A stretch of DNA of 64,000 nt. Source: Allorhodopirellula solitaria (GTDB taxonomy: Bacteria > Planctomycetota > Planctomycetia > Pirellulales > Pirellulaceae). The DNA is taken from NCBI RefSeq assembly GCF_007859855.1, contig NZ_SJPK01000002.1, positions 253,934 through 317,933 of the forward strand, given 5' to 3'. The translations under genes and the position numbers were made by a program. Below the pieces are notes generated by a model that was given only the letters and a program-made list of their open reading frames with translations, ran no database searches and was not told where the DNA came from. Numbering within the stretch: position 1 is the first letter of the stretch; each line of letters opens with the position of its first letter. Positions 18,346 to 36,582 of the stretch are shown in pieces.

Positions 18346-19689
18346 ATGTCCTCCGAAATGAATTCGATGCTAAAAACACCAGCCCCCACCCCAATGACCG
18401 ATCGCCAATCGCGACAAACCCAGAAATCGATCGTCACGGTCCTGTCAGTTTGCCTGACTGCCTTCTTACTCGGGGGGCTGGTTTGCTATTTAGCAATGTC
18501 GGGATTCAAAGATTCCGCTGAGGCGTCGGCCGCCAGTGGACCGGCCGTCGGGAAACCGCGAGGTCCGCAAGCTCAACTGGTTCGGGTCGGCTCGGTTCAA
18601 CGCAAGCCGATCCTGCCAACCAAGACGCTCGTCGGCGACTTGGTCGCCGTCCGCAGCGCCACGGTCGCGACCGAGGTGGCTGGCAAGGTGCTGATCCTGC
18701 CCGTCGACGAAGGTTCCCGGGTCACCGGCGGCGAGACACTACTCGCCCGCATGGACGACACCTGGTTGAAGCTGGAAGAGGAGAAGATTACCACGCAGAT
18801 TGCCGAGAAGAAAGCGACGCTCTCCTTCGAGAAGTCAGACCTCGAGCGGTTCGAAAAACTGTTCCAAGGCAGCGCGATGTCGGCGAGCGAGGTCGAACAG
18901 AAGCGTTCCTTGATTGAAGGGCACGAAGCTTCTCTTGCTAATCTGAGGGTCCTCCTCGACGAAGCAAACAAACGCAACGAGAGGCTCGAGATCTTTGCCC
19001 CTTTCGACGGCAGTGTCGTCGCCAAGCATGCCGAGATGGGCGAGTACCTGCCCATTGGCTCTCCGATCGTTGACGTAGTTTCCACCGGTCGCATCGACGC
19101 CAGGATCATGGTTCCTGAGGAATCCCTGCCGCTGTTGCATATCGGAGATTCTGTCGACCTCTTAGTCGCCGGTTTGAACATGGAGTTGCAGGGCAAGGTG
19201 TTTTCGATCAATGCCCAAGGCAGCGTCGGCAGCCGCACGTTCCCTGTCCGAATTGAACTCGATGATCAAGACGGTCAACTGTTGCCCGGGATGGGTGTGT
19301 CCGTCTTCGTCCCGGTGAGGAAAGAGTCGACGGAGCTACTGGTGCCTCGCGATGCCGTCCTGACGGAGCCTGACGAATCGACGATCTGGATTCTCCAGCC
19401 CAACAGTAAGACGGGAGTCCAGCCCGTCGCGAATTCGCGCCAGCCTGACAAGGGGCCAAGCCTCGTAGCGCAACCGATTCCCGTGCGAGTGCTTTCGCAT
19501 ACACGCGAATCCTACGCGATCGCATGCGTCCGTGAACAGGATCGCGAACGAGTCCGTGAGGGCGTGCAAGTGGTTACCGAAGGCTTGGAACGTTTGATCC
19601 CGGGCGCGACGGTCCGTATCGATGACGATCGTTCGGAGTTGTCAGCCGTTCCCGGTACCTACCGGACGGGTCAACAAGTCGTGGACTAG
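18346..19689 (+). CDS. RND efflux periplasmic adaptor (membrane fusion protein)
   Basis: A 447-aa protein with one N-terminal membrane anchor (about 30-51). The lipoyl/barrel-sandwich halves flank a coiled coil: GDLVAVRSATVATEVAGKV, then IDEGSRV-like VDEGSRVTGGETLLARMDD, a long charged helical hairpin (about 145-215), and FAPFDGSVVAKHAEMGEYLP. The beta-barrel follows with LVPRDAVLTEPDESTIWIL. This is the HlyD/AcrA architecture. It forms a bicistron with the RND permease 123 bp downstream, and together with an outer-membrane factor would span the envelope. No TolC gene is adjacent; the only TolC-like gene in the window is in the copper cluster at 28502. Confidence 0.93.
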   Translation: MSSEMNSMLKTPAPTPMTDRQSRQTQKSIVTVLSVCLTAFLLGGLVCYLAMSGFKDSAEASAASGPAVGKPRGPQAQLVRVGSVQRKPILPTKTLVGDLVAVRSATVATEVAGKVLILPVDEGSRVTGGETLLARMDDTWLKLEEEKITTQIAEKKATLSFEKSDLERFEKLFQGSAMSASEVEQKRSLIEGHEASLANLRVLLDEANKRNERLEIFAPFDGSVVAKHAEMGEYLPIGSPIVDVVSTGRIDARIMVPEESLPLLHIGDSVDLLVAGLNMELQGKVFSINAQGSVGSRTFPVRIELDDQDGQLLPGMGVSVFVPVRKESTELLVPRDAVLTEPDESTIWILQPNSKTGVQPVANSRQPDKGPSLVAQPIPVRVLSHTRESYAIACVREQDRERVREGVQVVTEGLERLIPGATVRIDDDRSELSAVPGTYRTGQQVVD

Positions 19690-19812
19690 CCCACCGGGAC
19701 ATTCGTCCTTGTCCTGATCGCTGTCGACACAGCTCAACCTACCGCGAAGAGTCCGAGCCGCATCACCACGCTCTGCGACCGATCGAAGCAGAATCATCAC
19801 GAGACCTACATC

Positions 19813-22800
19813 ATGGACCCCATTCAATTCGCGATCGCCAATCCAGTCAAGACTGCTGTTGGCATGATCCTGGTGCTGCTCTTTGGCATCATCGCGTTCG
19901 CCCGCATTCCGGTACAGTTGACGCCCGACGTCGATCGCCCCGTGATCACGATTCGCACGAACTGGGCCGGCCGCAGCCCCGAGGAAATCGAGAAATCGAT
20001 CATCATCGAGCAAGAGGAGAAACTGAAGTCGGTTCAAGGGCTTTGGAAGATGACCTCGGTAGCGAGCCTCGGCTCGGCGCAGGTCACACTCGAGTTCAAT
20101 GTGGGGGCGTCGCCGGAGCGGATCCTGCAAGAGGTCTCTAACAAGATCGACGAAGTCCCGGAGTACCCCGAAGACGTCGACCGCCCGATCATCGCGGTGG
20201 CCGATACCGCCGGAGACAATGCGATCGCCTACCTGCTCCTGCAGGCCGAAGATCCTGATTTCGAAGTCGCTACGTTCTACGATTTCTCCGACCGTTTCAT
20301 GACGCCCAGCCTGGAGCGTATTGAAGGTGTTGCGGAAATCGACATCAAAGGCGGCCGCACGCATCAAATCCAAGTGCGCTTCGATCCCGAAGCTCTCGCT
20401 CGGCGGGGGATCACGATTTCGCAAATGAACTCCGCCCTTCGCCTCGACAACGTCAACGCGTCGGCGGGCGATTTTGCCAACAGCCGACAAGATGTCCGTT
20501 ACCGGGTACTCGGACAATACGACTCGCTGCAGCCACTACGCGACACGATCATTAAGTACGACGACCAGGGCAGTCCGGTACGCGTTGCCGATGTCGCCGA
20601 AGTCAAACTGGCGTTGGAAAAGACCGTGCACTTTGACCAGTGCAAAGGCAAGACGTCGATGACGATTTTTGTCAAACGCAAAACCGGCAGCAACGTGCTC
20701 GATATCATCGACCAAGTCGAAAAGGTCGTCGATGAAATGAACGCCGAAGGAGGCGTACTGCGTAGCTTCAAGAACGATCGCTATGGATTGCGATTGCGGA
20801 TGGCCTTTGACGATTCCCTGTACATCAACAGTGCGATCGGACTCGTCCAACAAAATTTGTGGATCGGGGGCGGGCTCGCCGCGTTGGTGTTGCTGCTCTT
20901 CCTGCGCAGCGTGCGGTCGACCCTGATCATCGCGATCTCAATACCGATCTCGGTCATCGGTACCTTCGTGGTGATGTGGTTGGCCGACCGGAATCTAAAC
21001 GTTATCTCGCTGGCCGGTCTGAGCTTCGCGGTCGGCATGGTGGTCGACAACGCGATCGTGGTGCTGGAGAACATCGATCGGCATTTGAAGCTCGGGGCGA
21101 GTCCGGCCCGCGCGGCCTATGATGGAACACGCGAAGTCTGGGGTGCGATTCTAGCGTCGACGCTGACGACGATCGCGGTGTTCGCTCCCGTGTTGACGGT
21201 TCAAGACGAAGCTGGGCAGTTGTTCTACGACTTGATCCTGGCGATCTGTGCAGCTGTGGCATTGTCGTTTGTGGTTTCGATCACTGTCATCCCCACGGCT
21301 GCGTCGCTCTTGCTCAAAGCTCCCAAAAATATCGTAGCGGGCGACGAGGTCGAGGCTGCTGCACAGGCCCGGAGCGGTCGCCGGAACGCACCCTTTGACT
21401 GGATCTTGCGTCCGTTTGCCTGGCTTAACAACGCTTGGGCTTCATTCATTCATCTGTTGACCTTCCGCAGTCTTTCGAGTGTCTGGCTGCGGATCATGTT
21501 GATCGCAATCACCATGGTCGCTTCAATCGTCATCAGCCTGATGCTGATGCCACCGGCCAGCTATCTGCCCAACGGCACCAAAAACTTCACGTTTTGCCGG
21601 ATGTCGACGCCGGCGGGCTATTCGGTCATGGAGAACTTCTACGTCGGACAGCGTATCGAGCAGGAGTTGAAACCGTTTTGGAATGCCAAGGATTCCGCCG
21701 AGGCGTCGCAGTTCGGACCCGTCGTCGACCGGCGATCGGGCAAGGAGTACACCGACATCCCCGCTATCAAGGAGTTCTTCTTCGTCGTCGCACGCGGCAG
21801 CGTCTTCATGGTCGGCATCAGCCAAGATCCTGAGAATGTGGAACCGATCGCCGCGGTGTTCAATAAGTCGTTCGACGTGATCCCAGCCAGTAAAGGCGTG
21901 ACTTCGCAAGCGTCGATCTTTGGCCGCGGTGCCGGCAGTTCCAACGCTGTCGATCTGGAGGTGAGCGGCAACGATCTGACGCGGTTGAAGAACGCCAGCA
22001 CCTACCTCGAGCGAGAGCTTCAAGATGCGTTCTCGAAATTCTCGGTGCGTTCCTCACCGGATAATTTCAACGAATCCGGTCCTGAACGGCAGCTGCAAAT
22101 CAAACAGGAAGTCGCCAAGCGGTTGAACCTGAGTGTCAGCGATCTGGCGATGTCGGCGCGGGCCATGATCGATGGTTCCTTCGTTGGCGATTTTGATTTT
22201 CAAGGTGACAACATCGATTTGATCCTGATCCGAGACCCTGCAGCGGAGATCGTGCCCGAGGAGATCGAAGATCTGCCCATCGCTGTCCGTGAATCCAACG
22301 GCGAAGTCCTGATGGTCCCGTTGGGGCAGATCGCTGATTTCGTTACCACCGAGGCATCGCAGCAAATTCGCCGTGTCGAGCAGCAGCGGGCGATCTCGCT
22401 GTCGGTGACGCCACCCGACGATGTGGCGCTCGAGCAAGCCCAAGCTACCATCCTTGAAGTCGTCGACAGAGCCCGCGCCGAAGGGCATCTCGGCAGCGAT
22501 ATCTTTGTCTCACTCTCAGGCAATGCCGACCGCTTGTCGGAGGTTCAAGCCTCGTTGATGGGGCACTGGAGCGGCTGGAATTGGGAATCGATCGGTAGCG
22601 TTTCACTCAGCCGTTTCTTTTTGGCGCTCGTCATTACCTACCTATTGATGACAGCGCTCTTTGAGAACTTTCTCTACCCACTCGTCATCATGTGTACCGT
22701 GCCCCTGGCGACCGTCGGCGGGTTCGTCGGCCTGTGGGTCGTGCGGCAAAGCGATCCGACACAACAGATGGACGTGCTGACAATGTTAGGTTTCGTGATC

Positions 22801-23148
22801 TTGGTGGGCGTGGTCGTTAACAATGCGATCCTGATCGTTCACCAGGCGCTCAACTACATGCGGGGCCACGCCAGCGGTGCCGATGGCGCCGTCGCGCCCA
22901 TGTCCCCACGCGATGCGATCCGCGAATCAGTACGGAGCCGAATGCGTCCTATTTTTATGACAACGTGCACCAGCGTCTTCGGTATGTTGCCACTGGTGTT
23001 GGCCCCCGGCAGCGGCAGCGAACTCTATCGGGGTCTCGGCTCGATCGTTGTCGGTGGATTGGTATTTTCAACCATCTTCACCCTGCTCGTCATCCCGCTC
23101 CTGTTTAGCCTCGTTCTCGACGCGACTTCGCGACGTGCTGTAGAATAA
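19813..23148 (+). CDS. RND-family efflux permease (AcrB/MexB-like)
   Basis: An 1111-aa inner-membrane pump, close to the family length. It starts MDPIQFAIANPVKTAVGMIL with the first helix, then a large periplasmic loop, helices 2-6 including GLSFAVGMVVDNAIVVLENI with the proton-relay Asp, a second periplasmic loop, and helices 8-12 (LVITYLLMTALFENFLYPLV, VILVGVVVNNAILIVHQALN). The symmetry of the two halves is visible. It exchanges protons for export of hydrophobic compounds or metals. The motif set resembles the hydrophobe/multidrug type more than the metal (CusA) type, because the Met-rich CusA sites were not seen. The start follows a short gap after the adaptor. Confidence 0.95.
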   Translation: MDPIQFAIANPVKTAVGMILVLLFGIIAFARIPVQLTPDVDRPVITIRTNWAGRSPEEIEKSIIIEQEEKLKSVQGLWKMTSVASLGSAQVTLEFNVGASPERILQEVSNKIDEVPEYPEDVDRPIIAVADTAGDNAIAYLLLQAEDPDFEVATFYDFSDRFMTPSLERIEGVAEIDIKGGRTHQIQVRFDPEALARRGITISQMNSALRLDNVNASAGDFANSRQDVRYRVLGQYDSLQPLRDTIIKYDDQGSPVRVADVAEVKLALEKTVHFDQCKGKTSMTIFVKRKTGSNVLDIIDQVEKVVDEMNAEGGVLRSFKNDRYGLRLRMAFDDSLYINSAIGLVQQNLWIGGGLAALVLLLFLRSVRSTLIIAISIPISVIGTFVVMWLADRNLNVISLAGLSFAVGMVVDNAIVVLENIDRHLKLGASPARAAYDGTREVWGAILASTLTTIAVFAPVLTVQDEAGQLFYDLILAICAAVALSFVVSITVIPTAASLLLKAPKNIVAGDEVEAAAQARSGRRNAPFDWILRPFAWLNNAWASFIHLLTFRSLSSVWLRIMLIAITMVASIVISLMLMPPASYLPNGTKNFTFCRMSTPAGYSVMENFYVGQRIEQELKPFWNAKDSAEASQFGPVVDRRSGKEYTDIPAIKEFFFVVARGSVFMVGISQDPENVEPIAAVFNKSFDVIPASKGVTSQASIFGRGAGSSNAVDLEVSGNDLTRLKNASTYLERELQDAFSKFSVRSSPDNFNESGPERQLQIKQEVAKRLNLSVSDLAMSARAMIDGSFVGDFDFQGDNIDLILIRDPAAEIVPEEIEDLPIAVRESNGEVLMVPLGQIADFVTTEASQQIRRVEQQRAISLSVTPPDDVALEQAQATILEVVDRARAEGHLGSDIFVSLSGNADRLSEVQASLMGHWSGWNWESIGSVSLSRFFLALVITYLLMTALFENFLYPLVIMCTVPLATVGGFVGLWVVRQSDPTQQMDVLTMLGFVILVGVVVNNAILIVHQALNYMRGHASGADGAVAPMSPRDAIRESVRSRMRPIFMTTCTSVFGMLPLVLAPGSGSELYRGLGSIVVGGLVFSTIFTLLVIPLLFSLVLDATSRRAVE

Positions 23149-24659: not shown

Positions 24660-24992
24660 CTATGCGGCCATCGATGAGCAGCTTTCGTGGCACCTGCGGC
24701 AGCACTCGACGCAGCGGTCCATATTGCCGACCTTTTCGCAGCTGTCGGCGCAGGCCTTGCAAATTTCTGCGCAGGCTCGGCAGTAATGCGAATGGTAGTC
24801 ACTATTGCGGGACATGAAGCTAATACAGGCGTTGCAAGCGGCGGCACAATCGAGCATCAGTTTGACGTGAGTTTGCTCGACGTGGGCGCCGCCTTCGGCG
24901 AGGCAGGTGGCGGTCAACATGTCGTTGATCGTTGTCTGGCACTCTTGGCAGTTTTCAAGACAGTCTTGCTTGGTTGCGGTGGCAGTACTCAT
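24660..24992 (-). CDS. Four-helix-bundle cytosolic copper-storage protein (Csp-like)
   Basis: A 110-aa protein with about 14 cysteines spaced every three to four residues along predicted helices: QDCLENCQECQTTINDML, LDCAAACNACISFMSRN, HYCRACAEICKACADSC and RCVECCRRCHESC. The inward-facing Cys ladders are the hallmark of Csp/DUF326 proteins that store many Cu(I) ions in the bundle core. No signal peptide is visible, so this would be the cytosolic (Csp3-like) type. It is divergent from the copper ATPase gene, and the two share a 131-bp region with a CsoR-type palindrome at 25071-25087. Confidence 0.88.
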   Translation of the reverse strand: MSTATATKQDCLENCQECQTTINDMLTATCLAEGGAHVEQTHVKLMLDCAAACNACISFMSRNSDYHSHYCRACAEICKACADSCEKVGNMDRCVECCRRCHESCSSMAA

Positions 24993-25070: not shown

Positions 25071-25087
25071 ATACCACTATGGGGTAT
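25071..25087. promoter_or_regulatory. CsoR-type operator upstream of copper ATPase/Csp genes
   Basis: ATACCACTATGGGGTAT has the inverted-repeat arms ATACC and GGTAT separated by 7 bp, the typical form of CsoR DNA sites. It lies 37 bp before the ATPase start (25124) and 79 bp before the divergent csp start (24992), so it could control both. Identification is by motif and context. Confidence 0.75.
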
Positions 25088-25123
25088 ATTGCGACTTGCC
25101 AGAATGACAGCACAGGATTCAAC

Positions 25124-27520
25124 ATGGACACCACGGAAACCACAGCGACAGATCCGGTATGCGGCATGAAGGTGGATTCAGGGGATTCGCGGCGTAGCGA
25201 ATACCAGAGCAACGCCTATTTCTTCTGCAGCGCCGGGTGTCAGAGCAAGTTCGACGACGATCCCGTGGGTGTACTGGCAGCGCGGGCGGAGAAAGACGCG
25301 CAGAAAGAGGCGGGGCAGCAACGCGCCGGTGGCGAAGGGACGTCGTGTTGTGGAGGTGGTGGTGGCTCAGCGTCCAAGGCGACGGACAAGGCCGCAGATC
25401 CGGGGGCTGTGTATACCTGCCCAATGCACCTCGAGATCGAGCAAGTCGGCCCCGGGGATTGTCCGATCTGTGGGATGGATTTGGAACCGAAGTTCGTCGA
25501 CGCGGCGGACCAGCGCGACGATAGTCAGTACACCGATATGAAGCGGCGGTTCTGGGTGGGGGTGGCTTTGTCGGTGCCGCTATTGGTTATCGCGATGGGG
25601 CCGATGGTTGGTTTGCGTATCGACGATTGGATCGGCAATACCGCATTCGGATGGTTGCAGTGGGCCCTTGCCACGCCGGTCGTGTTCTGGTGTGGATGGC
25701 CGCTCTTAGTGCGTGGGGTGAAGTCGTTTCGCAGCCTGAACCTGAATATGTTCTCCTTGATCGCCGTGGGTTCCTTGGCGGCGTATCTGTTCAGTCTCGT
25801 TGTCGTCCTGATGCCCGGTGCGATCCCCGAAGCGTTTTACGAACATGGTGTCCCGCCTTTGTACTTCGAAGCGGCTGCCGTGATCATCACGCTCGTGCTG
25901 CTCGGCCAGGTCCTGGAGCTGCGGGCTCGGCAACAGACCAGTGGCGCGATCCGCGAGCTGATGGAGCTGGCGCCGGCGACCGCGACGCGCATCGATGGCG
26001 ATGACGAGGAGGAAGTCTCGCTCGACGAAGTTCAACAGGGCGATCGCCTGCGGGTTCGCCCGGGCGAGAAAGTGCCCGTTGATGGGCGTGTGCTGAGTGG
26101 TTCGAGTAGCGTCGATGAGTCGATGTTAACCGGTGAGCCGATCCCGGTTCAGAAGGGCGAGGGCGATGACCTCACCGGTGGTACGCTGAACCAGACCGGG
26201 GCGCTAGTGATGGAGGCGGTTGGCGTGGGCGGGGACACTGTTTTGAATCGCATCGTGCAGATGGTCGCTGATGCGCAGCGGAGTCGTGCTCCGATTCAGA
26301 AACTCGTCGATGTGGTTGCACGCTATTTCGTCCCAGCGGTGATCGCATGCTCGATCGCTGCCTTCATCGGCTGGGCCGTGTGGGGCCCCGAGCCCCAGTT
26401 GGCGCATGCGTTCGTTGCTGCGGTGGCGGTGTTGATCATCGCTTGTCCCTGTGCTCTGGGCTTGGCGACGCCGATGTCGGTGATGGTGGGTGTCGGACGC
26501 GGCGCCCAGGCAGGCGTGTTGATTAAGAATGCGGAAGTCTTGGAGGTGATGGAGAAGGTCGACACGATCGTGGTCGATAAGACCGGCACACTGACACAGG
26601 GCCGGCCTGAGGTCACGGCAGTCGAAACGTTTGGGCAGTGGAACGAACGCGACATCTTGGCGATGGCGGCGGCCGTGGAGGCTCCGAGCGAACACCCGCT
26701 CGCCCAGGCCGTCGTGCGGCGAGCCAAAGCAGATGACATCCACTGGAGCGCGGCGGCTGATTTCAACAGCATCACCGGCGGCGGCGTTCGCGCTCGTGTG
26801 GACGAGCGCGATGTGCTAATCGGCAATGCGGAGTTACTGAGCGAGCAGGGCGTGGAGAACATGGAGGCGGGGCGAAGCCGGGCGGAGGCACACCAATCTC
26901 AAGGAGCGACGGTGGTGTTCGTTTCGGTCGGCAATCAACTGGCCGCGATTCTTGCGATCACCGATCCGATCAAAGAAAGCACCCCCGCAGCACTGAAAAC
27001 ACTGCACGAGCTCGGCTTGAAAGTGGTGATGTTGACCGGCGATGCTCAGCCGACGGCCCGATCGGTGGCCACCGATCTAGGCATTGATGAGTTCCATGCC
27101 GGTGTGTCCCCTGAGGACAAGCACGCCTTTGTTAGCAAGCTGAAAGAGGAGGGGAAAGTGGTGGCGATGTGTGGCGACGGCATCAATGACGCCCCCGCAT
27201 TGGCCGAAGCGAACGTGGGCATCGCGATGGGCACGGGAACCGGCGTTGCAATCGAATCGGCTGGCGTGACACTGGTCGGCGGTGACCTACGAGGCGTCGC
27301 AGCAGCGGTGCGCCTCAGTCGCAAGACCATGAGCAATATCCGGCAGAACCTATTCTTCGCATTCATCTACAACGCCTTGGGAATTCCGATCGCGGCGGGG
27401 GTGCTGTATCCCGTTTTCGGCGTCCTGCTCAGCCCGATGATTGCCGCCGCCGCAATGAGCATGAGCAGTGTCTCGGTGATCGCCAACGCCCTGCGATTGC
27501 GCTCGGCGGAACTCGAGTAA
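25124..27520 (+). CDS. copA: Cu(I)-translocating P1B-type ATPase with YHS domain
   Basis: 798 aa from the ATG at 25124 ([19 protein letters not shown]). The frame is open upstream to 25067, but that would run through the operator palindrome. Order: YHS domain (about 9-50, DPVCGMKV with CSAGC), a Cys/Gly linker with a heavy-metal-binding motif ([20 protein letters not shown]), membrane helices, the MLTGEPIPV actuator, the metal-site motif [10 protein letters not shown], the phosphorylation site DKTGTLT, and [16 protein letters not shown] with a YN/MSSxS ending ([16 protein letters not shown]) supports copper export. It has no N-terminal HMA fold of the CxxC type. Predicted to pump Cu(I) out of the cytosol, induced through CsoR. 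Confidence 0.95.
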
Positions 27521-27661
27521 GCAATGCGGGAACAAAGCAGTTGCCGGGAAGCCATTCGGTGCAACCCGATGAGCCGGCGGGCGATGGCCGAATACAGCTT
27601 AATCTAGATGTGAAACGGTATAGGCAGCTGGACGCGTGAGCGCGGCGACGACACGCGTTCC

Positions 27662-27682
27662 CCTGTCAGCTTGTCTGACAGG
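27662..27682. terminator. Hairpin after the copper ATPase
   Basis: CCTGTCAG and CTGACAGG form an 8-bp perfect stem around a 5-nt loop, 142 bp downstream of the ATPase stop. No T-run follows, so its role as a terminator is uncertain. Confidence 0.35.
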
Positions 27683-27711
27683 AGACCAAGCCGACCAATC
27701 ACAAAGCTAAA

Positions 27712-28176
27712 GTAGGGCCGGTTCCCACCGGCCATCCACACCAGCACACCCACCGCAACGGAACAACCGACGCATATGGCCGGTGGGAACCGGCCCTACG
27801 ACGACCGGCGGTCGCTACGAATGCTACTTTCACCGCCAATTCCTCGAGGAAACCATCGGCCAAGCAAGTAGGGCCGGTTCCCACCGGCCATCCACACCAG
27901 CACACCCACCGCAACGGAACAACCGACGCATATGGCCGGTGGGAACCGGCCCTACGACGACCGGCGGTCGCTACGAATGCTGCTGTCACCGCCAATTCCT
28001 CGAGGAAACCATCGGCCAAGCAAGTAGGGCCGGTTCCCACCGGCCATCCACACCAGCACACCCACCGCATCGGAACAACCGACGCATATGGCCGGTGGGA
28101 ACCGGCCCTACGACGACCGGCGGTCGTTACGAATGCTACTGCCACCGCCAATTCCTCGAGGAAACCATCGGCCAAG
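27712..28176. repeat. Three-copy 156-bp tandem repeat with perfect 24-bp palindrome arms
   Basis: Copies start at 27712, 27868 and 28024, exactly 156 bp apart, and are almost identical. In each, GTAGGGCCGGTTCCCACC... (24 bp) is followed after 40 bp by its perfect reverse complement (27776-27799 in copy 1), so each transcript could fold a long stem. The rest of the unit (GGCGGTCGCTACGAATGCTA... to GGCCAAG) is also conserved. Reading frames through it on both strands encode only repetitive peptide and are not genes. The array fills the gap between copA and the TolC-like gene. Spacers are repeated too, so it is not a CRISPR. Confidence 0.9.
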
Positions 28177-28218
28177 ATCGCCACGTCAAATTCCAAACCG
28201 GAGAATTATATCGCTTCC

Positions 28219-28288
28219 ACCCCATTCGGGGTTGGCTCTTGCGTTTCGCGACGTATCCGGTGGTGTTCGCTTACGCTCAAACCACCGG
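28219..28288 (-). repeat. Dispersed ~70-bp double-hairpin repeat, copy 2
   Basis: This is the inverted counterpart of 14723-14793. ACCCCATTCGGGGT and CCGGTGGT...ACCACCGG are the two stems. It directly follows the 156-bp tandem array. Confidence 0.75.
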
Positions 28289-28433
28289 AAAAGACAATTC
28301 GTCCACGCCTGCTTCGCAATGTCTTAGTAGACGCGTTAACAGGCCCGGCAGGGCCACGGTCTCAGTTGATCTTGCCTAACCGGTACAGCCTGAACAAGGA
28401 ATGAATCCGTGGGCACTCCAGTCTGTCGATCCT

Positions 28434-28450
28434 ATACCCTGCATGGGTAT
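28434..28450. promoter_or_regulatory. CsoR-type operator upstream of the TolC/multicopper-oxidase operon
   Basis: ATACCCTGCATGGGTAT has 6-bp perfect arms (ATACCC/GGGTAT) around 5 bp, the best of the three copies in the window. It lies 52 bp upstream of the ATG at 28502. Its position argues against the longer start at 28409, which would place the operator inside the coding region. Confidence 0.8.
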
Positions 28451-28501
28451 GCGGCCGATGGAATGGCTAGGAAACGGCATCATTCCAGGGACACGGATCG
28501 T

Positions 28502-29956
28502 ATGAATCGAAATTTAATACACTCGTTGATCGTGACAGCGGTGGCGGCAACTCATCAGGGAGTCAGCGCCCAAGATGGATCGATGACGGAGCGGATGTCG
28601 GTGGACCTGTCGGTAACACGACCGCTCAGCGATTCGGGAGGACAGGTACTCGCTGAGAGTGAGCTACCGCCACTGCCAAAGATGCCGGGTGGACTGGTTG
28701 ATTTTGAATCGACCGATGGTTTGGCGAACAATGTCGTCATCCCGACGCACACACTCGAGAGTGTGCTGGCGTTCGCTGCGGGAAACAATCCGACGATTCG
28801 GCAAGCGAGACTGCACGTTTCGGCTGAGATGTCCAAGGCGTTGCAGGCAGGTCTGTATCCCAACCCTGTCTTGATGTATGTCGGCGAGAAGATCAATAGT
28901 GATGGCACAGCGGGCGAGTTCCAGGGATTCGAAATTTCTCAGCGATTCGTGACTAGAGGGAAGCTCCGGCTAAGTCGGCAGAAGTACCGCGAGCGTGCTC
29001 ACGTGGCCGAGCATCTCGCGATCGCACAAACGTACCGCGTTACCAACGAGGTCGAAGTGCAGTTCATCGAGGCATTGGCAGCCTCGATGCGCCTCGGGCT
29101 TCAGCGGGAGCTTGAGAAGACGGCTGAGGACGGCGCCGTGACGACTCGTGAACAGTACAACCTGGGACAAGCCAATCTGACAGCGGTGCGACGGGCCAAT
29201 GTGATGCTGCAGAAGCAACGATTGGAACGGATGGCGACCGAGAATGAATATCACGGTGCTTTGAGGCGGTTGTCCGCTCTCGTGGGGGCGCCACTCGGGA
29301 TTGGGCCCATCGGAGGTGAACTGCGGCCGAGCCAAGCGTTGGATTCGTTCGATGATGTGCTCTCACGCCTGGTACTGGAAAGCCCCGAAGTGCTGGCGGC
29401 GCGTGCGAAGCTGCGCGTGGACCAAACGACGGTGCACCGCGAGCGGGTCCAATGGATACCCGATATCACCATTCAAGGTGGCCCCGGATACAACTACACC
29501 AACAACGACGACGTGTACAACGCTGCCGTTAAAGTGGATTTGCCGATTTATGATCGCAACCAGGGCACGATCCGGCAGGCATGTCAGGACCTACGGCGTC
29601 AGCAGTTTGAGATCCAGCGATTGGAATTGCATTTGAAAGAGCGGTTGGCCTCCGCGTACCGAAGTTACGCCACGGCGCTGCAGCATGCGACTGAGTACGA
29701 TCAAGTCGTGATTCCTGAGCTACGGGAGAGTTATCGGCAGTTGCTTGTCAGTTACCAGGACAACCGGATTGCCTGGCCAGACGTCTTGGAAGGTCAGCGT
29801 GACTACTTCCAGGCGAGAATGGAGCAGATTGATCAGTTCAAGCAGGTTCGGCAGCAGGAGACGATGATCAACGGCTATCTGCTCGATGGCGGTTTGATGG
29901 CGGCCGCGGGCCCTGTCCCACCGGGTCACATCGATTCGGTCGCGAAACCTCGATAG
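28502..29956 (+). CDS. TolC/CusC-family outer-membrane efflux protein
   Basis: 484 aa from the ATG at 28502, which begins a signal peptide (MNRNLIHSLIVTAVAATHQG, ending VSAQ). Two similar halves of long amphipathic helices follow: LESVLAFAAGNNPTIRQARL with LNPVLMYVGEKI-like beta segment, and VLESPEVLAARAKLRVDQTT with PDITIQGGPGYNYTNNDDVY. This is the duplicated outer-membrane factor architecture. It lies 87 bp upstream of the multicopper oxidase under one CsoR-type operator, so it is assigned to copper export, as for CusC. No adaptor or RND pump is adjacent; the RND genes at 18346-23148 are a possible partner. Confidence 0.9.
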   Translation: MNRNLIHSLIVTAVAATHQGVSAQDGSMTERMSVDLSVTRPLSDSGGQVLAESELPPLPKMPGGLVDFESTDGLANNVVIPTHTLESVLAFAAGNNPTIRQARLHVSAEMSKALQAGLYPNPVLMYVGEKINSDGTAGEFQGFEISQRFVTRGKLRLSRQKYRERAHVAEHLAIAQTYRVTNEVEVQFIEALAASMRLGLQRELEKTAEDGAVTTREQYNLGQANLTAVRRANVMLQKQRLERMATENEYHGALRRLSALVGAPLGIGPIGGELRPSQALDSFDDVLSRLVLESPEVLAARAKLRVDQTTVHRERVQWIPDITIQGGPGYNYTNNDDVYNAAVKVDLPIYDRNQGTIRQACQDLRRQQFEIQRLELHLKERLASAYRSYATALQHATEYDQVVIPELRESYRQLLVSYQDNRIAWPDVLEGQRDYFQARMEQIDQFKQVRQQETMINGYLLDGGLMAAAGPVPPGHIDSVAKPR

Positions 29957-30043
29957 ACGCGATCGGAAGTCGAAATTCAAAGCCGGCGAGACCATCGGCG
30001 GTGTCCTTGAGAAATATCCAACAGACAACCTACGGAAGATGCC

Positions 30044-31582
30044 ATGTCCAGTACCGAAGACCGTCGACGTTTCCTGACCACCGGATCTCTCGCGGCCACG
30101 CTAGGTGTCGTCGGTAACCTGTTCGGCCGAAACACGCACGCTCAGTCCCCGATGATGACCGATAACAGCGCAGCACCCACTCGCCAACAGGACGGGCAGG
30201 GGACTCCGCCCATGCCGGCTGACTCGACCGTCCAAGCTGAGTACGATGGGTATTCACGGTTCCGGCCCTCGCGCGGCAACGATCCCAACAGCGATTACTA
30301 CCTTGGCAAATTGATGCCAGGGTTTCGGCCGGCGGCCGCAGGGCCCGCTCCTTTCGAAGCTCCTGATTTGGACAAGTTACCGTACAAGACCGTCGGCGGG
30401 GTGAAGGAATTTCAGCTCGTTCCGATGGCGGTCAAACGGGAGTTCCTGCCGGGCTATGACATGAACGTGTATGGCTTCAACGGCAGCATGCCGGGGCCGA
30501 CAATCGAAGTTACGCAGGGCGATCGCGTGCGGATCGTTGTCACCAATGAACTGCCGGAGGATACGGTTGTGCATTGGCATGGTTTCGAGTTGCCGATCCA
30601 GTGGGATGGTGCTTCGGAATTGACTCAAGAGCCAATCAAGCCGGGGGAGACGTTTGTCTACGAGTTTGACGTGCACGAGGAGGGCACCTTCTTCTATCAC
30701 TCGCATGTGCCCATGCAGGAGGCCTTCGGCATGGTGGGATGGTTCATCGTCCAACCCAAGCAGGTCTTTGATCCACCCGTCGATCGTGACTTTGGTTTGA
30801 TCTTTCAAAACTTCTTCATCGACAGTTCGCAGGACATCGCGGACAGTTGGAAGATGGATTGGAATTGGCATACGATCAACGGCCGCAGCGGCCCGTACAC
30901 GACACCTCTCGTGGTCAAGCACGGCGAACGTGTTCGAATTCGGATCATGAACTTCGCACCGATGCAGCACCATCCGATCCATCTTCACGGACACACGTTT
31001 TGGCTAACCGGTCGCGAGGGAGCGCGGACTCCCCACTCGGCATGGGTACCTCGCAACACCGAGTTGATCGGCATCGCTCAAGCAACTGATTTTGAGTTCA
31101 TCGCTAATAACCCGGGCGATTGGATGTTCCATTGTCACATGGTTCATCACATGATGAACCACATGACCGAGCAAGTCGGTCCGAGGATTCGCGAAGACGC
31201 GTCGGTCGCCCCCTACCTCGCCAATCTCGATTCCAGACCTGCCGTGGATGCGACCCGGCAAGCCCCTGGTTTCGCAACACCCGGGTACCCGCAGCTGATG
31301 AAGGGTATGCAGATGTCGGAGGAATTCATGAAAACGATCTGGAACCGCAAACAGGTCCGCGGCATGCGAGCCAACTATCCGATGAGCGTGATGGGATTGA
31401 TGACAGTGCTGCGGGTACTACCCGAAGACCTGTATGAGGTGGTGATGGGCGGTGAGGAGGATGTTGAAAAAGGGGCCGTTTTCGCGGAGATTGTACGGCG
31501 GTTCGGTAACCCTGATGCCTATCAAGCCGCGCCCAAGATGAAGATGGAAAGCGGTCTAACGGCGGGGCCGTTTCCAGGGTAA
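30044..31582 (+). CDS. Multicopper oxidase (CopA/CueO-like), Tat-exported
   Basis: A 512-aa protein. The leader has the Tat pattern DRRRFLTTGSLAATLGVV. The four copper-binding blocks are all present: HWHGFE (H177, H179), YHSHV (H219, H221), HHPIHLHGHTF (H310, H313, H315) and HCHMVHH with the type-1 cysteine C364 and a later Met. All ligands expected for the type 1 site and the trinuclear centre are present, so it is likely active. It probably oxidises Cu(I) to the less toxic Cu(II) in the periplasm. The second gene of the TolC operon, it is followed 43 bp later by csoR. Confidence 0.95.
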   Translation: MSSTEDRRRFLTTGSLAATLGVVGNLFGRNTHAQSPMMTDNSAAPTRQQDGQGTPPMPADSTVQAEYDGYSRFRPSRGNDPNSDYYLGKLMPGFRPAAAGPAPFEAPDLDKLPYKTVGGVKEFQLVPMAVKREFLPGYDMNVYGFNGSMPGPTIEVTQGDRVRIVVTNELPEDTVVHWHGFELPIQWDGASELTQEPIKPGETFVYEFDVHEEGTFFYHSHVPMQEAFGMVGWFIVQPKQVFDPPVDRDFGLIFQNFFIDSSQDIADSWKMDWNWHTINGRSGPYTTPLVVKHGERVRIRIMNFAPMQHHPIHLHGHTFWLTGREGARTPHSAWVPRNTELIGIAQATDFEFIANNPGDWMFHCHMVHHMMNHMTEQVGPRIREDASVAPYLANLDSRPAVDATRQAPGFATPGYPQLMKGMQMSEEFMKTIWNRKQVRGMRANYPMSVMGLMTVLRVLPEDLYEVVMGGEEDVEKGAVFAEIVRRFGNPDAYQAAPKMKMESGLTAGPFPG

Positions 31583-31625
31583 AATCATGGATTCAGCCAA
31601 CTCGGCCTGGTGAAAGTCACGACGA

Positions 31626-31904
31626 ATGCTCTCAGACGAAGAGAAGAAGAAGCTCAAAAATCGACTCCGACGTGTCACCGGACAGGTCGATGCAGTGAGC
31701 CGTATGATTGAAGAAGACGAATACTGCGTCGATATTTTGATGCAGTTGTCGGCCGCCAGGGGAGCACTTGATAAGGTCGGCCAGATCGTCTTGGAACAGC
31801 ATCTGAAGACGTGCGTGGCCGAGGCGATCGAGGGCGGTGACGCGACCGACCGAGACGAGAAGATCGAAGAGCTGATCAAAGTTTTCCGCAAGTATTCCAC
31901 TTGA
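31626..31904 (+). CDS. csoR: Copper-sensing repressor of the CsoR family
   Basis: A 92-aa all-helical protein. KLKNRLRRVTGQVDAVSRMI is the family's N-terminal basic helix. The Cu(I) ligands match the Cys-His-Cys triad: C34, H59 and C63 in YCVDILMQLSAARGAL and LEQHLKTC. Family members release DNA on binding Cu(I). Three ATACC-N7-GGTAT palindromes in this window would be its targets. It lies 43 bp after the multicopper oxidase, probably cotranscribed, so it would be part of its own regulon. No separate operator is seen before it. Confidence 0.93.
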   Translation: MLSDEEKKKLKNRLRRVTGQVDAVSRMIEEDEYCVDILMQLSAARGALDKVGQIVLEQHLKTCVAEAIEGGDATDRDEKIEELIKVFRKYST

Positions 31905-32047
31905 AGTGGATCCAGCTCGCCTGAGATTGACCCAGTTTAAAGAAAAATCGTACAGGCCCAATATTCTGCGGCGGTGTGCAACGCTCAATGACCATTTGTC
32001 AGAGAGTTTCTCCGCGAATTGCCAGCGTTCTCCCAAAATCGTGCACC

Positions 32048-32446
32048 ATGAACTGTCGCCGTAGTAAAACGACTGCTGGAATTGTCGCTGTTTTTGCGGC
32101 AATGGCAGTCTTGCTGCTCGCTTCACCGGTGACTCGAGCAATATGGCATTCCGCAGTCCCTTGCCCTGTCTCGATTCACAGCGAGTGCCGGCAATCGCAT
32201 CACGCCCACCAGGCCTGCTGTGGTTGTGGTTGTGAAACGTCGCAAGAATGCCCCGCGATGGGCTGCTGGGAAACAAAACGCTGGCTGCCGCCGCGTACCT
32301 CCTCTGGCGACGTGACGCCGGCCGGAATGTCCTCCGGCAATTTCTCCACGATCGCGTGGCAGATCGAATCTGTCTTCGTAAGCCAACCGCTCGGGGTTGT
32401 CCGGACCCACTCTCTGATGGAACAGCGCGTTCGTCTTCAAGTTTAG
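32048..32446 (+). CDS. Small exported Cys/His-rich protein, unknown
   Basis: 132 aa from the ATG at 32048; an in-frame start at 31976 would put a poor leader before the signal peptide. The N-terminus (about 1-30) has RRSKTTAGIVAVFAAMAVLL, a clear export signal. The mature part contains a dense metal-binding cluster: CPVSIHSECRQSHHAHQACC then GCGCETSQECPAMGC. The remainder is polar. I do not recognise a family. Its place after csoR and the cluster of Cys and His suggest periplasmic copper binding. Compare the other Cys-rich protein at 35856-36467. A role in copper delivery or sequestration is inference. Confidence 0.65.
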   Translation: MNCRRSKTTAGIVAVFAAMAVLLLASPVTRAIWHSAVPCPVSIHSECRQSHHAHQACCGCGCETSQECPAMGCWETKRWLPPRTSSGDVTPAGMSSGNFSTIAWQIESVFVSQPLGVVRTHSLMEQRVRLQV

Positions 32447-32656
32447 GAATTGGCAGAGCTTCGATTTGTGAAGCCAGATCAAACCTTGATAGAAGATGTT
32501 CCCTGTTCGTATCCCAACCGGTGTTAGTCGATCTCGGCTGCGCCTGCGGGAGCTGGAGTTTTTAGTATGTCGCTGAATGCATTCTCTGCCGTATTGGCTT
32601 GCCGCACCGCTCTCTTTTGCGGGCTCAGGCGTCGCGACTGATTCAGTCGCACGCTC

Positions 32657-34207
32657 GTGTCCTTTGAATCGTCCACCTGCCGAGTGAGAGAACTTTCTCG
32701 CTGCGTCGGTGGCGTCTGTTCCCACCGCAATAAAGAGAACCGGAAGTTGTCATTTACACCGAAATACATCAATAGCCGTTGGCATCGTTTGCCGATCAGT
32801 CGCCAGCTCTTGATCCTGGTCAACGCGATCTTGGTGGGGTTGGTCACGTTCTTTCTCGTCGTCGACTACCGCATCCGCATGTCGCGGCGGATCAACGATA
32901 AGCAAATTGCACTGACTGAAGAAGCCAAGACCATGTACGAATCGCTGTTGATGACGGAGGCGGGTGGAGGCAACGCGATCCAGAGCTTGGTCGACAACGT
33001 TTGTGCACGCATGAATACCGATGATTCACCGGGGCATCACATCGCCGCCGACTGGCGAGGGCTTCCGTACCAGGCCGTTTCCCACGGCCATGCATCGGAG
33101 CAAATCTTGGAGTCCATGAGGGTCCAAGCGGAGGGAGTGGGCGACGAGATGGCTGGGATGCCGACAATCGTGGTCGGTTCGTTTAGCGGAGGGGCCGGAA
33201 CGGTTTATATCTCCGAGCTTCGCTCAGCCGTCGTCGACGCAACCCGCCATTCGTCACTGCGGCAAACGCTGGCGGTGATGACACTAGCGGCAATCGCCGC
33301 CGTGATCGTGAGTGTCATGCTGCGCCAGCTAATCGCCAAGCCGATTGAAAAACTCGTTGCGGCCCTGCGGCTGGTGGCATCGGGAGACCTTGGTGTGATC
33401 GCCCATACGCGGAGCTGCAAAGAATTGAGCTATCTGGCTGATCAGATCAACTGCATGACGGGAGCACTCGATCATGCTCAACGAGATCATCGTGTTCAAA
33501 TGGACAAAGCTCGGCAGATTCAGCAGAACTTGCGACCTGATTTAACGGATTGCAACAATCTCGATGTCGCGGAGTTGTTTCTGCCAGCCGATGACGTTGG
33601 CGGAGACTACTACGATGTGATTTCAATGCCAGGTGATCGCTATTTGCTTTGCGTTGCCGATGTATGCGGACACGGCGTGCCTGCAGCAATGGCGGCAACA
33701 TTGTTGAAGGCATTTGTCTCTGAAGCTGCGAAGCGGTCATCCAGTCCTGGCGTGATTCTGACCGATGTCAATCAACGGTACTGTGAGTACGTGGTGCCGG
33801 GGCACTTCGCGACCATGACCCTGCTGCTCATTGATCCCAAGAACCGAAAGATGACCTACGCCAACGCCGGTCACGAGCTGCCGTTTGTTCAGATAGGCGA
33901 CGAACCACCGATGCGTCTCAACATTGGTGATCTGATCCTCGGTGTCGAGGAGGAAACGCGATACGAGGAGGAGACGATTCTACTCGCCGATGCCGCACGC
34001 ATTGTGATCGTCAGTGACGGGGTGACCGAAGCGTTCGATCCCCGGGAAGAACAATATGGAACTGCACGAATCGAGCAACTGATGAGCGAGGTCTCCGTTT
34101 CGACGGCGCGCGAGTTGGTCGAACGATTTGAGGGTTCACTCAAGGCGTTTCGAAAAGGCCAGAAGGCGTTCGATGATACGACACTCCTCGTTGCCCAGCT
34201 AAACTGA
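32657..34207 (+). CDS. SpoIIE/RsbU-type PP2C phosphatase with HAMP domain
   Basis: A 516-aa protein. After a basic N-terminus, membrane helices flank a periplasmic sensor part at about 50-70 and 200-225 (LAVMTLAAIAAVIVSVMLRQ), followed by a HAMP region (LIAKPIEKLVAALRLVASGD). The C-terminal domain (about 285-515) has DVAELFLPADDVGGDYYDV and VADVCGHGVPAAMAATLLKAF, the Asp-containing metal motifs of SpoIIE phosphatases, with GVTEAFDPREEQYG towards the end. Such proteins dephosphorylate anti-anti-sigma factors. No partner is adjacent. The start could be later. It stands between the csoR/Cys-rich genes and the convergent YHS gene. Confidence 0.88.
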   Translation: MSFESSTCRVRELSRCVGGVCSHRNKENRKLSFTPKYINSRWHRLPISRQLLILVNAILVGLVTFFLVVDYRIRMSRRINDKQIALTEEAKTMYESLLMTEAGGGNAIQSLVDNVCARMNTDDSPGHHIAADWRGLPYQAVSHGHASEQILESMRVQAEGVGDEMAGMPTIVVGSFSGGAGTVYISELRSAVVDATRHSSLRQTLAVMTLAAIAAVIVSVMLRQLIAKPIEKLVAALRLVASGDLGVIAHTRSCKELSYLADQINCMTGALDHAQRDHRVQMDKARQIQQNLRPDLTDCNNLDVAELFLPADDVGGDYYDVISMPGDRYLLCVADVCGHGVPAAMAATLLKAFVSEAAKRSSSPGVILTDVNQRYCEYVVPGHFATMTLLLIDPKNRKMTYANAGHELPFVQIGDEPPMRLNIGDLILGVEEETRYEEETILLADAARIVIVSDGVTEAFDPREEQYGTARIEQLMSEVSVSTARELVERFEGSLKAFRKGQKAFDDTTLLVAQLN

Positions 34208-34485
34208 AACGCCGTCTGCTGCAACCGACGCGGGACGCTTAGGATGAGTCCGGTTCGTTGACAAGAAAAACAGGCAGGGGCGGCGTGGTGACTTCATCAC
34301 TTGCGTGAATCCGACGCGACACCGCCCCCGCGTGAATCGAAAGGAGCGCCTTTCTTGTAGTGGACGAGGCGACGAGTCCTTTCAGCCAGTCGATCCCGAG
34401 ACGTGAAAGGACTCATTGCCTCGTCCGCTACTGTGCTTATTGTGAAAGGACTCGTGGCCTCGTCCACTACGGCGTTTCTTGTTGC
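34208..34485. terminator. Convergent-gene gap with stacked inverted repeats, possible bidirectional terminator
   Basis: Between two convergent stops lie three copies of the GTGGACGAGGCGACGAG repeat: 34357-34380 direct, 34408-34431 and 34447-34470 inverted. The first pairs with the second or third to give long alternative stems that read the same on both strands. No T-run follows, so termination is inferred from place and folding only. Confidence 0.45.
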
Positions 34486-35616
34486 TTAGCGGATCGTGGG
34501 AGCTTCGACTCCTTGTGACTTCAATACCGCCAGATACCGCTGTGGTTCGGCGGCAATCTTTTTGGCACAGCCGGGGCAGCAGATATAGATCGCTTTGCCA
34601 GCCGCGTTGACTTTGTAGGGGCCGCCCATCGTGCCGAGTGGCTCATCCATAACGGGGCACTTCTTTTGAGCTGCAATGAATGGGCTGTCAGCGGCAACCA
34701 CTTGGAAGACCCCTTCACGCACCTGCTCGGTTCCAGCGGGCACCGCAGCGGTGTCATCGTCGCGGTAGACCATCGCGAGATACTTCGCCGGTTCGGCTTG
34801 CACCTTCTTAACGCAGCCCTTGCAGCACAAAAAGATCGGTTGCTCGCCCACCATCACCTTGACGGGCGTGCCCATGCCGCCGAGCGGTTCATCCATGACG
34901 GGGCACGTTTTCTGAGCAGCGATCGCGGCCGCGTCGGCTGCGGTTGCTGCCGCGACGGTGATCTGGGGGCGGCTGACTGCGTACTTGCTCGGGTTGGACT
35001 TGACCGTATCGGTGCAGCCAGCGCAGCAGACGTAGATATTCTCGCCATTGATGTTGACGGCGACTGGATCGCCCATGCTGCCAAGCGGTTTGCCGCTAAC
35101 GGGGCACGTGCTCTGGCGGGCGATCGCGGCGGCGGCACGCTGCTGTTCACTACCGGGGACGGTTACGATTTCCTGGTACTGCACTGTGCGGGCGGTGATG
35201 CCGACAAGCTGTACGTCAAGGTTGATCTGCCGACCCGCAACCTGCGACAGGTCCACGTGAGCGTTCAGGGATCCTTTGCTGTCGGGTAGCAAGTCGTATC
35301 GGTATCGCTTTGCCACGCCTTGGACGCGCACCGAGACGACACCGCGGCTTTGATCGATCGACACTGGCTCGCCGGCGCGATCGTAGACAAACATCTGCAT
35401 CCCATCGTGGGATACGATTGTCTCGATCTGCAGATTGCCCGTCTGCGCGAGATGGCCTCCTCGTGGACCTGCCGGCGCGATTTCGCCAGCCGTCGGGACT
35501 CCGGACGCCACCTGATCGAGGCCGGCATGGTCTCGGTGCGAGTCTGTGGTCTGCGCAAACGCTGACGATGCGGTTAACGCGAGCGAGCATGCGGTAATGA
35601 TTGCGATTCGTTTCAT
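34486..35616 (-). CDS. Exported protein with three YHS-like metal-binding repeats
   Basis: 376 aa from the ATG at 35616, with GGAGTTTTCC just upstream as a likely ribosome site and a signal peptide (MKRIAIITACSLALTASSAF, then AQ). The frame is open to 35772, but that part lacks export features. The C-terminal part repeats three times: CPVSGKPLGSMGDPVAV... YVCCAGCTDTV, CPVMDEPLGGMGTPVKV... FLCCKGCVKKV and CPVMDEPLGTMGGPYKV... YICCPGCAKKI, each with CP plus CCxGC cysteines as in YHS domains. The repeats look like recent duplications. It is probably a periplasmic copper-binding protein. No CsoR-type site was seen before it, unlike its neighbours. Confidence 0.8.
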   Translation of the reverse strand: MKRIAIITACSLALTASSAFAQTTDSHRDHAGLDQVASGVPTAGEIAPAGPRGGHLAQTGNLQIETIVSHDGMQMFVYDRAGEPVSIDQSRGVVSVRVQGVAKRYRYDLLPDSKGSLNAHVDLSQVAGRQINLDVQLVGITARTVQYQEIVTVPGSEQQRAAAAIARQSTCPVSGKPLGSMGDPVAVNINGENIYVCCAGCTDTVKSNPSKYAVSRPQITVAAATAADAAAIAAQKTCPVMDEPLGGMGTPVKVMVGEQPIFLCCKGCVKKVQAEPAKYLAMVYRDDDTAAVPAGTEQVREGVFQVVAADSPFIAAQKKCPVMDEPLGTMGGPYKVNAAGKAIYICCPGCAKKIAAEPQRYLAVLKSQGVEAPTIR

Positions 35617-35820
35617 AGGAAAACTCCGTTGGGAAGGGTTGGACACCATCCGTTGGGTCCATCGAGTTGGGTGAGAATGTGTAACGAGATGCGGCACTCG
35701 CAGCTCGAGTTGATCGTTCGCGGTGTACGGCCATTCGCGAGCGCACTTCGGGTTGAAAGCAGGGTTGCCCAACTGCGGGCGCGCAGCTTCTTCCGAGGGG
35801 AAGTCAGCAGGGAATGGTAA

Positions 35821-35838
35821 AGCTGCGAGCGCGCAGCT
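35821..35838. terminator. Short palindrome downstream of the Cys-rich gene
   Basis: AGCTGCG and CGCAGCT form a 7-bp stem around 4 nt (35821-35838), 18 bp past the end of the minus-strand gene at 35856. A related GCGCGCAGC word occurs at 35779-35790. It may be a weak terminator; no strong T-run. Confidence 0.35.
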
Positions 35839-35855
35839 CTCCTAGAAAGACGACG

Positions 35856-36467
35856 CTAGATGCGCCAGATACAAAGGAACCGCTGGGAGAAATGCGGTGC
35901 GAGGTCGCCAACCGGCTGACGTGAGGTGGCCGGCTTCGGCGAACAGGACAGAGCACTGTCGGCGGCGAGGTGATCGAGATAGGCAATCACGACCAATTCG
36001 CGTGGTTGCGACACAGGAACACGCTGGACCGGTGGCGCAGCTGGCTCGGAATGGACGCCACACCTGCAGGCAGACCGTGCGATCGGTGGCTGCGCCGGTA
36101 CTGCGTTGATTGCGGTAGACGGCTCGTCGACGATATCGAATTTCCTACCGACCTGCTCCTTCATGCCGTGTGCGTCCCTGCCGCTATCGTCTGCATCCTG
36201 TTCGTCTGCGTCCGGCGCGGCGGGCTGTTTCGTGTTCGGATCGCTTGCCTCATGGTCGCCTTCGTTGCAACAACCACACCGATCGCCCGCGGCCGCGACT
36301 TCGCAGCATTGGCATGAGCTGCAGACCGATTTGGCGTGGCAGCAAGATTCGTTTTCAGCGTTTTGAGCACAGGTTCCCTGCGCAGCGACCATTGCTGTCG
36401 GCTGAACCACGATGGTAGCGATCAGACAGAAATGGATGGCGGTGCGAATGAGAGGGAAGTTGCTCAC
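35856..36467 (-). CDS. Exported Cys-rich protein with CsoR-type operator, unknown
   Basis: About 203 aa from a GTG at 36467. This start gives a good signal peptide (SNFPLIRTAIHFCLIATIVV, then QPTAMVAAQ), whereas the ATG at 36590 adds 41 unlikely residues and includes the operator. The mature protein begins with a Cys cluster: CAQNAENESCCHAKSVCSSC followed by QCCEVAAAGDRCGCC, then an acidic Asp/Pro-rich linker, and CRCG near the C-terminal third. No known family was recognised. The 17-bp CsoR-like palindrome 21 bp upstream ties it to the copper regulon. Probably a periplasmic Cu(I)-binding protein, by inference. Confidence 0.68.
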   Translation of the reverse strand: MSNFPLIRTAIHFCLIATIVVQPTAMVAAQGTCAQNAENESCCHAKSVCSSCQCCEVAAAGDRCGCCNEGDHEASDPNTKQPAAPDADEQDADDSGRDAHGMKEQVGRKFDIVDEPSTAINAVPAQPPIARSACRCGVHSEPAAPPVQRVPVSQPRELVVIAYLDHLAADSALSCSPKPATSRQPVGDLAPHFSQRFLCIWRI

Positions 36468-36487
36468 GATGACCTTGCGAAAGAGGA

Positions 36488-36504
36488 TACCCTTACCCGG
36501 TATG
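36488..36504. promoter_or_regulatory. CsoR-type operator upstream of the Cys-rich protein
   Basis: ATACCCTTACCCGGTAT has arms ATACC and GGTAT with 7 bp between them, matching the two other sites at 25071 and 28434. It lies 21 bp upstream of the GTG start at 36467, read on the minus strand. Confidence 0.7.
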
Positions 36505-36582
36505 GTACCAGTATCGTGAATCGGGCGAAAAAGTTCAATAGGAAAGTCCGGCGATTGGATCCGATCGACATTGCCCCCGGAT

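Follow-up and report, generated by a model that had tools for sequence, protein, structure and literature searches.

The systems described so far that lie closest to the locus studied here are CsoR-family copper regulons. In Streptomyces lividans, the type 2 CsoR operator reads ATATACCCCTNAGGGGTATAT, a TAC-N9-GTA repeat with G/C tracts inside it, and CsoR contacts DNA through an RLXR motif (PMC3902906). The csp3 gene of the same organism is reported to be copper-induced. In Mycobacterium tuberculosis, the CsoR-family repressor RicR controls a thiolate copper-binding protein, a putative multicopper oxidase (MCO) and itself (PMC10141476). That paper's survey of copper regulation records, in the portion consulted, only two-component and extracytoplasmic function (ECF) systems and no CsoR in its few Planctomycetota. 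Among the papers listed by our literature searches, none deals with a CsoR regulon in planctomycetes and, by title, none with copper in Rhodopirellula. In this work we analyzed 64,000 nucleotides of the planctomycete Allorhodopirellula solitaria (contig NZ_SJPK01000002.1; the whole stretch is hereafter the window), in which three ATACC-N7-GGTAT sites and their genes very probably form a CsoR copper regulon, with an operon on another contig as a probable further member. Copper control of this kind is well known in bacteria and is mapped here in a planctomycete.

Predicted operators and target genes, and CsoR

The window contains exactly three ATACC-N7-GGTAT matches, each with the TAC-N9-GTA inverted repeat, and permitting one mismatch adds none. 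A first-pass annotation had noticed this shared motif and placed it before copA, a TolC/multicopper-oxidase operon and a Cys-rich gene. Its first two positions (25071 and 28434) are right, and the third site starts at 36487 and not at 36488. We measured 36 bases from operator 1 to the copA ATG (25124), 51 from operator 2 to the tolC ATG (28502) and 19 from operator 3 to the likely GTG start of the Cys-rich gene (36467), all counted from starts of our own choice, with longer open reading frames running over each of the three sites. Operator 1 also lies 78 bases upstream of a divergent csp gene that the earlier annotation lacked. The sites and the genes around them are as follows.

24660..24992, minus strand: csp, Csp3-type copper-storage protein, 110 amino acids (phmmer: 3lmf, 1.9e-21; RkCsp3, 6zif, 5.9e-15)
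25071..25087: CsoR-type operator 1, located between the divergent genes csp and copA (exact match; relatives have orthologous exact sites ahead of copA, csp or both)
25124..27520, plus strand: copA, copper P1B-ATPase with N-terminal YHS and heavy-metal-binding domains (TIGR01511, 594 bits against a cut-off of 397; Pfam)
28434..28450: CsoR-type operator 2, upstream of tolC-MCO-csoR (exact match; counterparts in relatives)
28502..29956, plus strand: tolC, TolC-family outer-membrane efflux protein (PF02321, 5e-28)
30044..31582, plus strand: MCO, multicopper oxidase (PF07732, PF07731, PF00394)
31626..31904, plus strand: csoR, copper-sensing repressor, 92 amino acids, Cys34-His59-Cys63 (PF02583, 3.9e-32, 110.9 bits, cut-off 22.8)
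34486..35617, minus strand: TRASH/YHS-like multi-domain protein after the Cys-rich gene (weak TRASH/YHS-type matches; whole open reading frame to 35772, ATG at 35617 assumed)
35856..36467, minus strand: Cys-rich protein under operator 3, hydrophobic N-terminus (alignment and gene maps; secretion judged by eye)
36487..36503: CsoR-type operator 3, upstream of the secreted Cys-rich gene (exact; aligned with sites of 14 relatives' loci, 13 of them exact, the other with one mismatch)
36510..36538, minus strand: putative promoter of the Cys-rich gene, TTGAAC-17-GATACT (promoter scan, column majorities, alignment)

The csoR gene with a Cys-His-Cys triad that had been reported amid the cluster is the only PF02583 match of the genome; its Cys34, His59 and Cys63 align with the Cys, His and Cys residues of CsoRs of known structure, 2hh7 and 4adz among them, and its residues 13-16, RLRR, match the RLXR motif. 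Against the RicR model NF052430 it scores 74.8 bits (cut-off 175), a narrow "exception" model, so the protein is not RicR itself. The tolC, MCO and csoR genes are co-directional and separated by 87 and 43 bases, and since operator 2 heads them, CsoR would control itself. Regarding the genes at operator 1, the csp product falls just under the cut-off of Pfam DUF326 (20.2 bits against 20.4) and has no signal peptide as judged by eye, and CopA scores below the cut-off of the narrower CopA equivalog PRK10671 (644 against 1316).

Occurrence and conservation of the motif

Throughout the genome (6.8 Mb, 62 contigs) there are four exact matches to ATACC-N7-GGTAT, compared with one for the reversed control, and at the density found in the rest of the genome the chance of at least three exact sites within 11.4 kb is about 8e-10. 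The genome-wide scan that the first-pass annotation had called for thus finds a motif that is not frequent at random; such an objection is excluded by the four exact matches, their clustering and the linkage to csoR in relatives described below. The fourth exact match was rejected as a regulon member; it lies inside a frame of 930 amino acids (a membrane protein by eye). The shorter core TACC-N7-GGTA, with 36 occurrences against 79 for its reversed control, is unspecific alone, and the reading frames around all 36 show that most are intragenic. Besides the three window sites, only one was recognized before copper genes, on contig C6, the neighbors of the other 32 having been judged from reading frames without a family search. 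An exact-match scan alone was discarded as a way to define the regulon, as it misses this one-mismatch operator, ATACCTCCAAGGGGTAA, which the shorter core caught.

The operator on C6 precedes a Cus-type operon in the order Cys-rich paralog, CusB-like gene and CusA-type pump, with a TolC-family gene opposite. The pump is 70-73% identical to that of relatives, the Cys-rich paralog is 28% identical to a relative's and 25% to the window's, and the promoter layout is similar (TTGAAC-17-CATAAT). From these features, the operon is a probable fourth member of the regulon, outside the window, in line with the earlier description of the regulon as dispersed.

We searched 19 relatives, of which 10 carry a csoR-family gene, with 15 such genes in all. 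Across the 11 csoR-bearing genomes (these 10 and the genome itself), 37 of the 44 exact sites lie at most 20 kb from a csoR, in 0.8% of the DNA, and 35 of the 37 stand before known targets, the window sites included: copA and/or csp in 14 cases, tolC in 7 and the Cys-rich gene in 14. The counterparts of operator 2 comprise six exact sites and one with a mismatch before tolC, and two with one mismatch before MCO-csoR. In the case of csp, each of the 12 genes located next to a cluster is preceded by an exact site at a distance of 64-78 bases, and the five located elsewhere have none in the stretches scanned (G004, G005 C32, G006 C90, G011 C4, and G012 in two pieces). Three relatives (G007, G009 and G015) have csoR and no csp match, and G001 is without both. 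That the sites recur before orthologous genes, go with csoR and match the published type 2 operator supports their being CsoR-type, as first proposed. Conservation and co-occurrence with csoR are direct observations, as are the sites and genes themselves.

The association extends beyond these relatives. A genome collection scanned with a CsoR alignment yielded 74 loci from many phyla, classified as planctomycete or other by record title. With a spacer of 7, the motif is present in 51 of the 74 loci, 68 times in total, whereas spacers of 3-6 and 8-13 give 0 to 5 occurrences each and the reversed control gives 2; the exact motif is found in 30 of 35 planctomycete and 21 of 39 other loci. In 15 loci, 12 of them non-planctomycete, the csoR match is preceded by a site at most 300 bp away, versus 5 loci with a spacer of 8 and one with a spacer of 6.

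An alignment of 39 sites (the 35 linked exact ones and four with one mismatch) shows TACC and GGTA to be invariant save for one base; the CC and GG are invariant and longer G/C tracts vary. Position 6 of the seven-base center differs by target, being A in 13 of 14 copA/csp sites, C in all 10 tolC or MCO sites and G in 11 of 15 Cys-rich-gene sites. These target-specific centers may tune affinity, or may merely reflect descent. At operator 3, the -10 of the putative promoter ends 6 bases before the operator, and across 14 sequences, this one among them, the -35 and -10 columns and the 17-bp distance between them are conserved; other candidates of the scan, some intragenic, score equally.

Proposed control and competing explanations

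In our proposal, apo-CsoR, produced from the third gene of tolC-MCO-csoR, would occupy the 17-bp type 2 operators and keep the copper genes off; at operator 3 the bound protein would cover the stretch just past the -10 box, and at operator 1 it would sit in the lone intergenic stretch of csp and copA. A rise in cytosolic Cu(I) would load Cys34-His59-Cys63 and lead CsoR to release the DNA, jointly inducing cytosolic storage (Csp3), inner-membrane export (CopA), outer-membrane efflux (TolC), Cu(I) oxidation (MCO) and the secreted Cys-rich protein with the TRASH protein. CsoR would be made as well, giving negative feedback, and the CusBA operon on C6 would come under the same control through its one-mismatch operator. 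We infer binding, repression, Cu(I) release and feedback from sequence.

It is important to consider the points that weigh against this proposal. Two of the 37 linked sites do not precede a known target: that of G002 is near a csp site, and the other belongs to G007 (L052:8746-8762). Nine relatives without a csoR match contain 13 exact sites, 5 of them in one genome; the three viewed in context, of which two are from G001 and one is from G012, are all inside reading frames. The 20-kb limit was set after the coordinates were known and related genomes are non-independent, so a binomial P for the linkage overstates the case. The exact site is missing in 23 of the 74 csoR loci, the seven-base centers are often short of the full S. 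lividans consensus G-tracts, and the NCBIfam models for RicR, FrmR and RcnR all match our CsoR below their cut-offs. The promoter scan at operators 1 and 2 gave no consistent sigma-70 promoter toward copA or tolC, and toward csp it gave a weak CTGTCA-16-TATACC that overlaps operator 1 and is among the top three candidates in 9 of 12 sequences. Sequence comparison supports the proposed regulon well, and we take the observation to be real. As a separate observation, the G007 site is 27 bases before a frame that by eye resembles an ECF sigma factor, about 11 kb from csoR.

Three other explanations were weighed. The palindromes might serve another metal regulator (MerR/CueR-like, CopY-like or two-component), the linked csoR being incidental; the binding of the sites by CsoR is a prediction, the regulators surveyed here were those of the CsoR family, and the Planctomycetota covered in the consulted portion of PMC10141476 have only two-component and ECF copper systems. 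However, motif and csoR go together both within these genomes and, with an equal spacer, in other phyla, and the motif equals the core of the known CsoR operator, which makes this explanation improbable. We consider slightly less probable still that these are CsoR-family operators whose regulator senses a signal other than copper. RcnR, FrmR and CstR are sensors of the CsoR-family type for nickel, formaldehyde and persulfide, respectively, and PF02583 spans such sensors; the sub-threshold scores of the three NCBIfam models are compatible with this idea, but the RicR model is the best of the three, the Cys-His-Cys residues align with those of solved CsoRs and the neighbors are copper genes. Finally, dinucleotide shuffles of the window give a mean of 0.42 matches with at most one mismatch, and two of 100 reach three, so that a chance set of palindromes is conceivable in the window taken by itself; the four exact matches genome-wide and the orthologous sites kept before the same genes contradict it, and we regard it as very nearly negligible. 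CsoR control of copper genes is accordingly the explanation that we retain.

Neighboring genes and comparison with described systems

The Cys-rich protein under operator 3 has no Pfam or NCBIfam match. A search for Pfam relatives with 16 family members was unconvincing (DUF4769 in three, best E 0.1; DUF4148 in one, 0.93). In relatives, RND (resistance-nodulation-division) pump and TRASH genes lie downstream of the Cys-rich gene on the same strand in all 14 loci read (9 genomes), and the three loci viewed closely all have a CusB-like gene between the Cys-rich and pump genes; the window has no pump gene between its Cys-rich and TRASH genes. We tentatively suggest, as a possibility somewhat short of an even chance, that this protein founds an undescribed periplasmic copper-binding family and captures copper as the first partner in a Cus system under CsoR control, retained here though the CusBA genes are no longer adjacent.

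After csoR, a further small gene possibly ends the operon:

32048..32446, plus strand: small secreted Cys-rich protein (homologs beside csoR in six relatives' loci)

Its product matched no Pfam family; secretion (by eye) and co-transcription with csoR are both possible. It is followed by a PP2C-phosphatase-type gene (32657-34207, by eye), whose place is kept in several relatives. Between copA and operator 2 (27710-28177) there are three tandem 156-bp copies, 97-99% alike, built around GTAGGGCCGGTTCCCACCGGCC, a 22-mer with 69 genome occurrences on both strands, often in arrays with other periods. RND adaptor and pump genes also adjoin the cluster (18346-23148). Multidrug-type RND models give them better scores than the CusA model does, although for the pump these scores stay below curated cut-offs, and ATACC-N7-GGTAT has no match in this region. 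Second CsoR paralogs in two relatives (L047:4300-4602, L048:10057-10359) adjoin a multicopper oxidase, and in them Ser replaces the Cys that is the third copper ligand.

Our study provides a sequence-based candidate regulon for copper in a phylum for which the survey, in the portion consulted, gave only two-component and ECF systems (PMC10141476); it brings storage (Csp3) and export (CopA) together at one common operator, and it places a secreted Cys-rich family without a Pfam entry in a copper setting. The proposed regulon resembles that of S. lividans, in that ATACC-N7-GGTAT is the core of ATATACCCCTNAGGGGTATAT and fits TAC-N9-GTA, and its targets include copA and csoR where S. lividans has copZA operons and csoR (PMC3902906). 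It differs in its shorter, target-dependent inner G-tracts and in the added Csp3, TolC, multicopper oxidase and secreted Cys-rich protein. As with RicR of M. tuberculosis, a CsoR-family repressor would govern several operons; the RicR targets are the metallothionein MymT, a lipoprotein, a permease and socAB, while here they would be Csp3, CopA, TolC and the Cys-rich/Cus module (PMC10141476). The csp product matches RkCsp3 of Methylocystis sp. Rockwell (6zif) at 5.9e-15 over nearly its full length (PMC10155185), but csp is here divergent from copA with a common CsoR-type operator; no CsoR operator for Csp3 is described in the literature checked on Csp3 and CsoR, which was consulted in part and excluded reviews. 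Finally, the succession of Cys-rich, CusB-like and CusA-like genes on C6 and in relatives is like that of Cus efflux operons, from which it is distinguished by its head gene, a secreted Cys-rich protein without a Pfam family, and by its CsoR-type operator.

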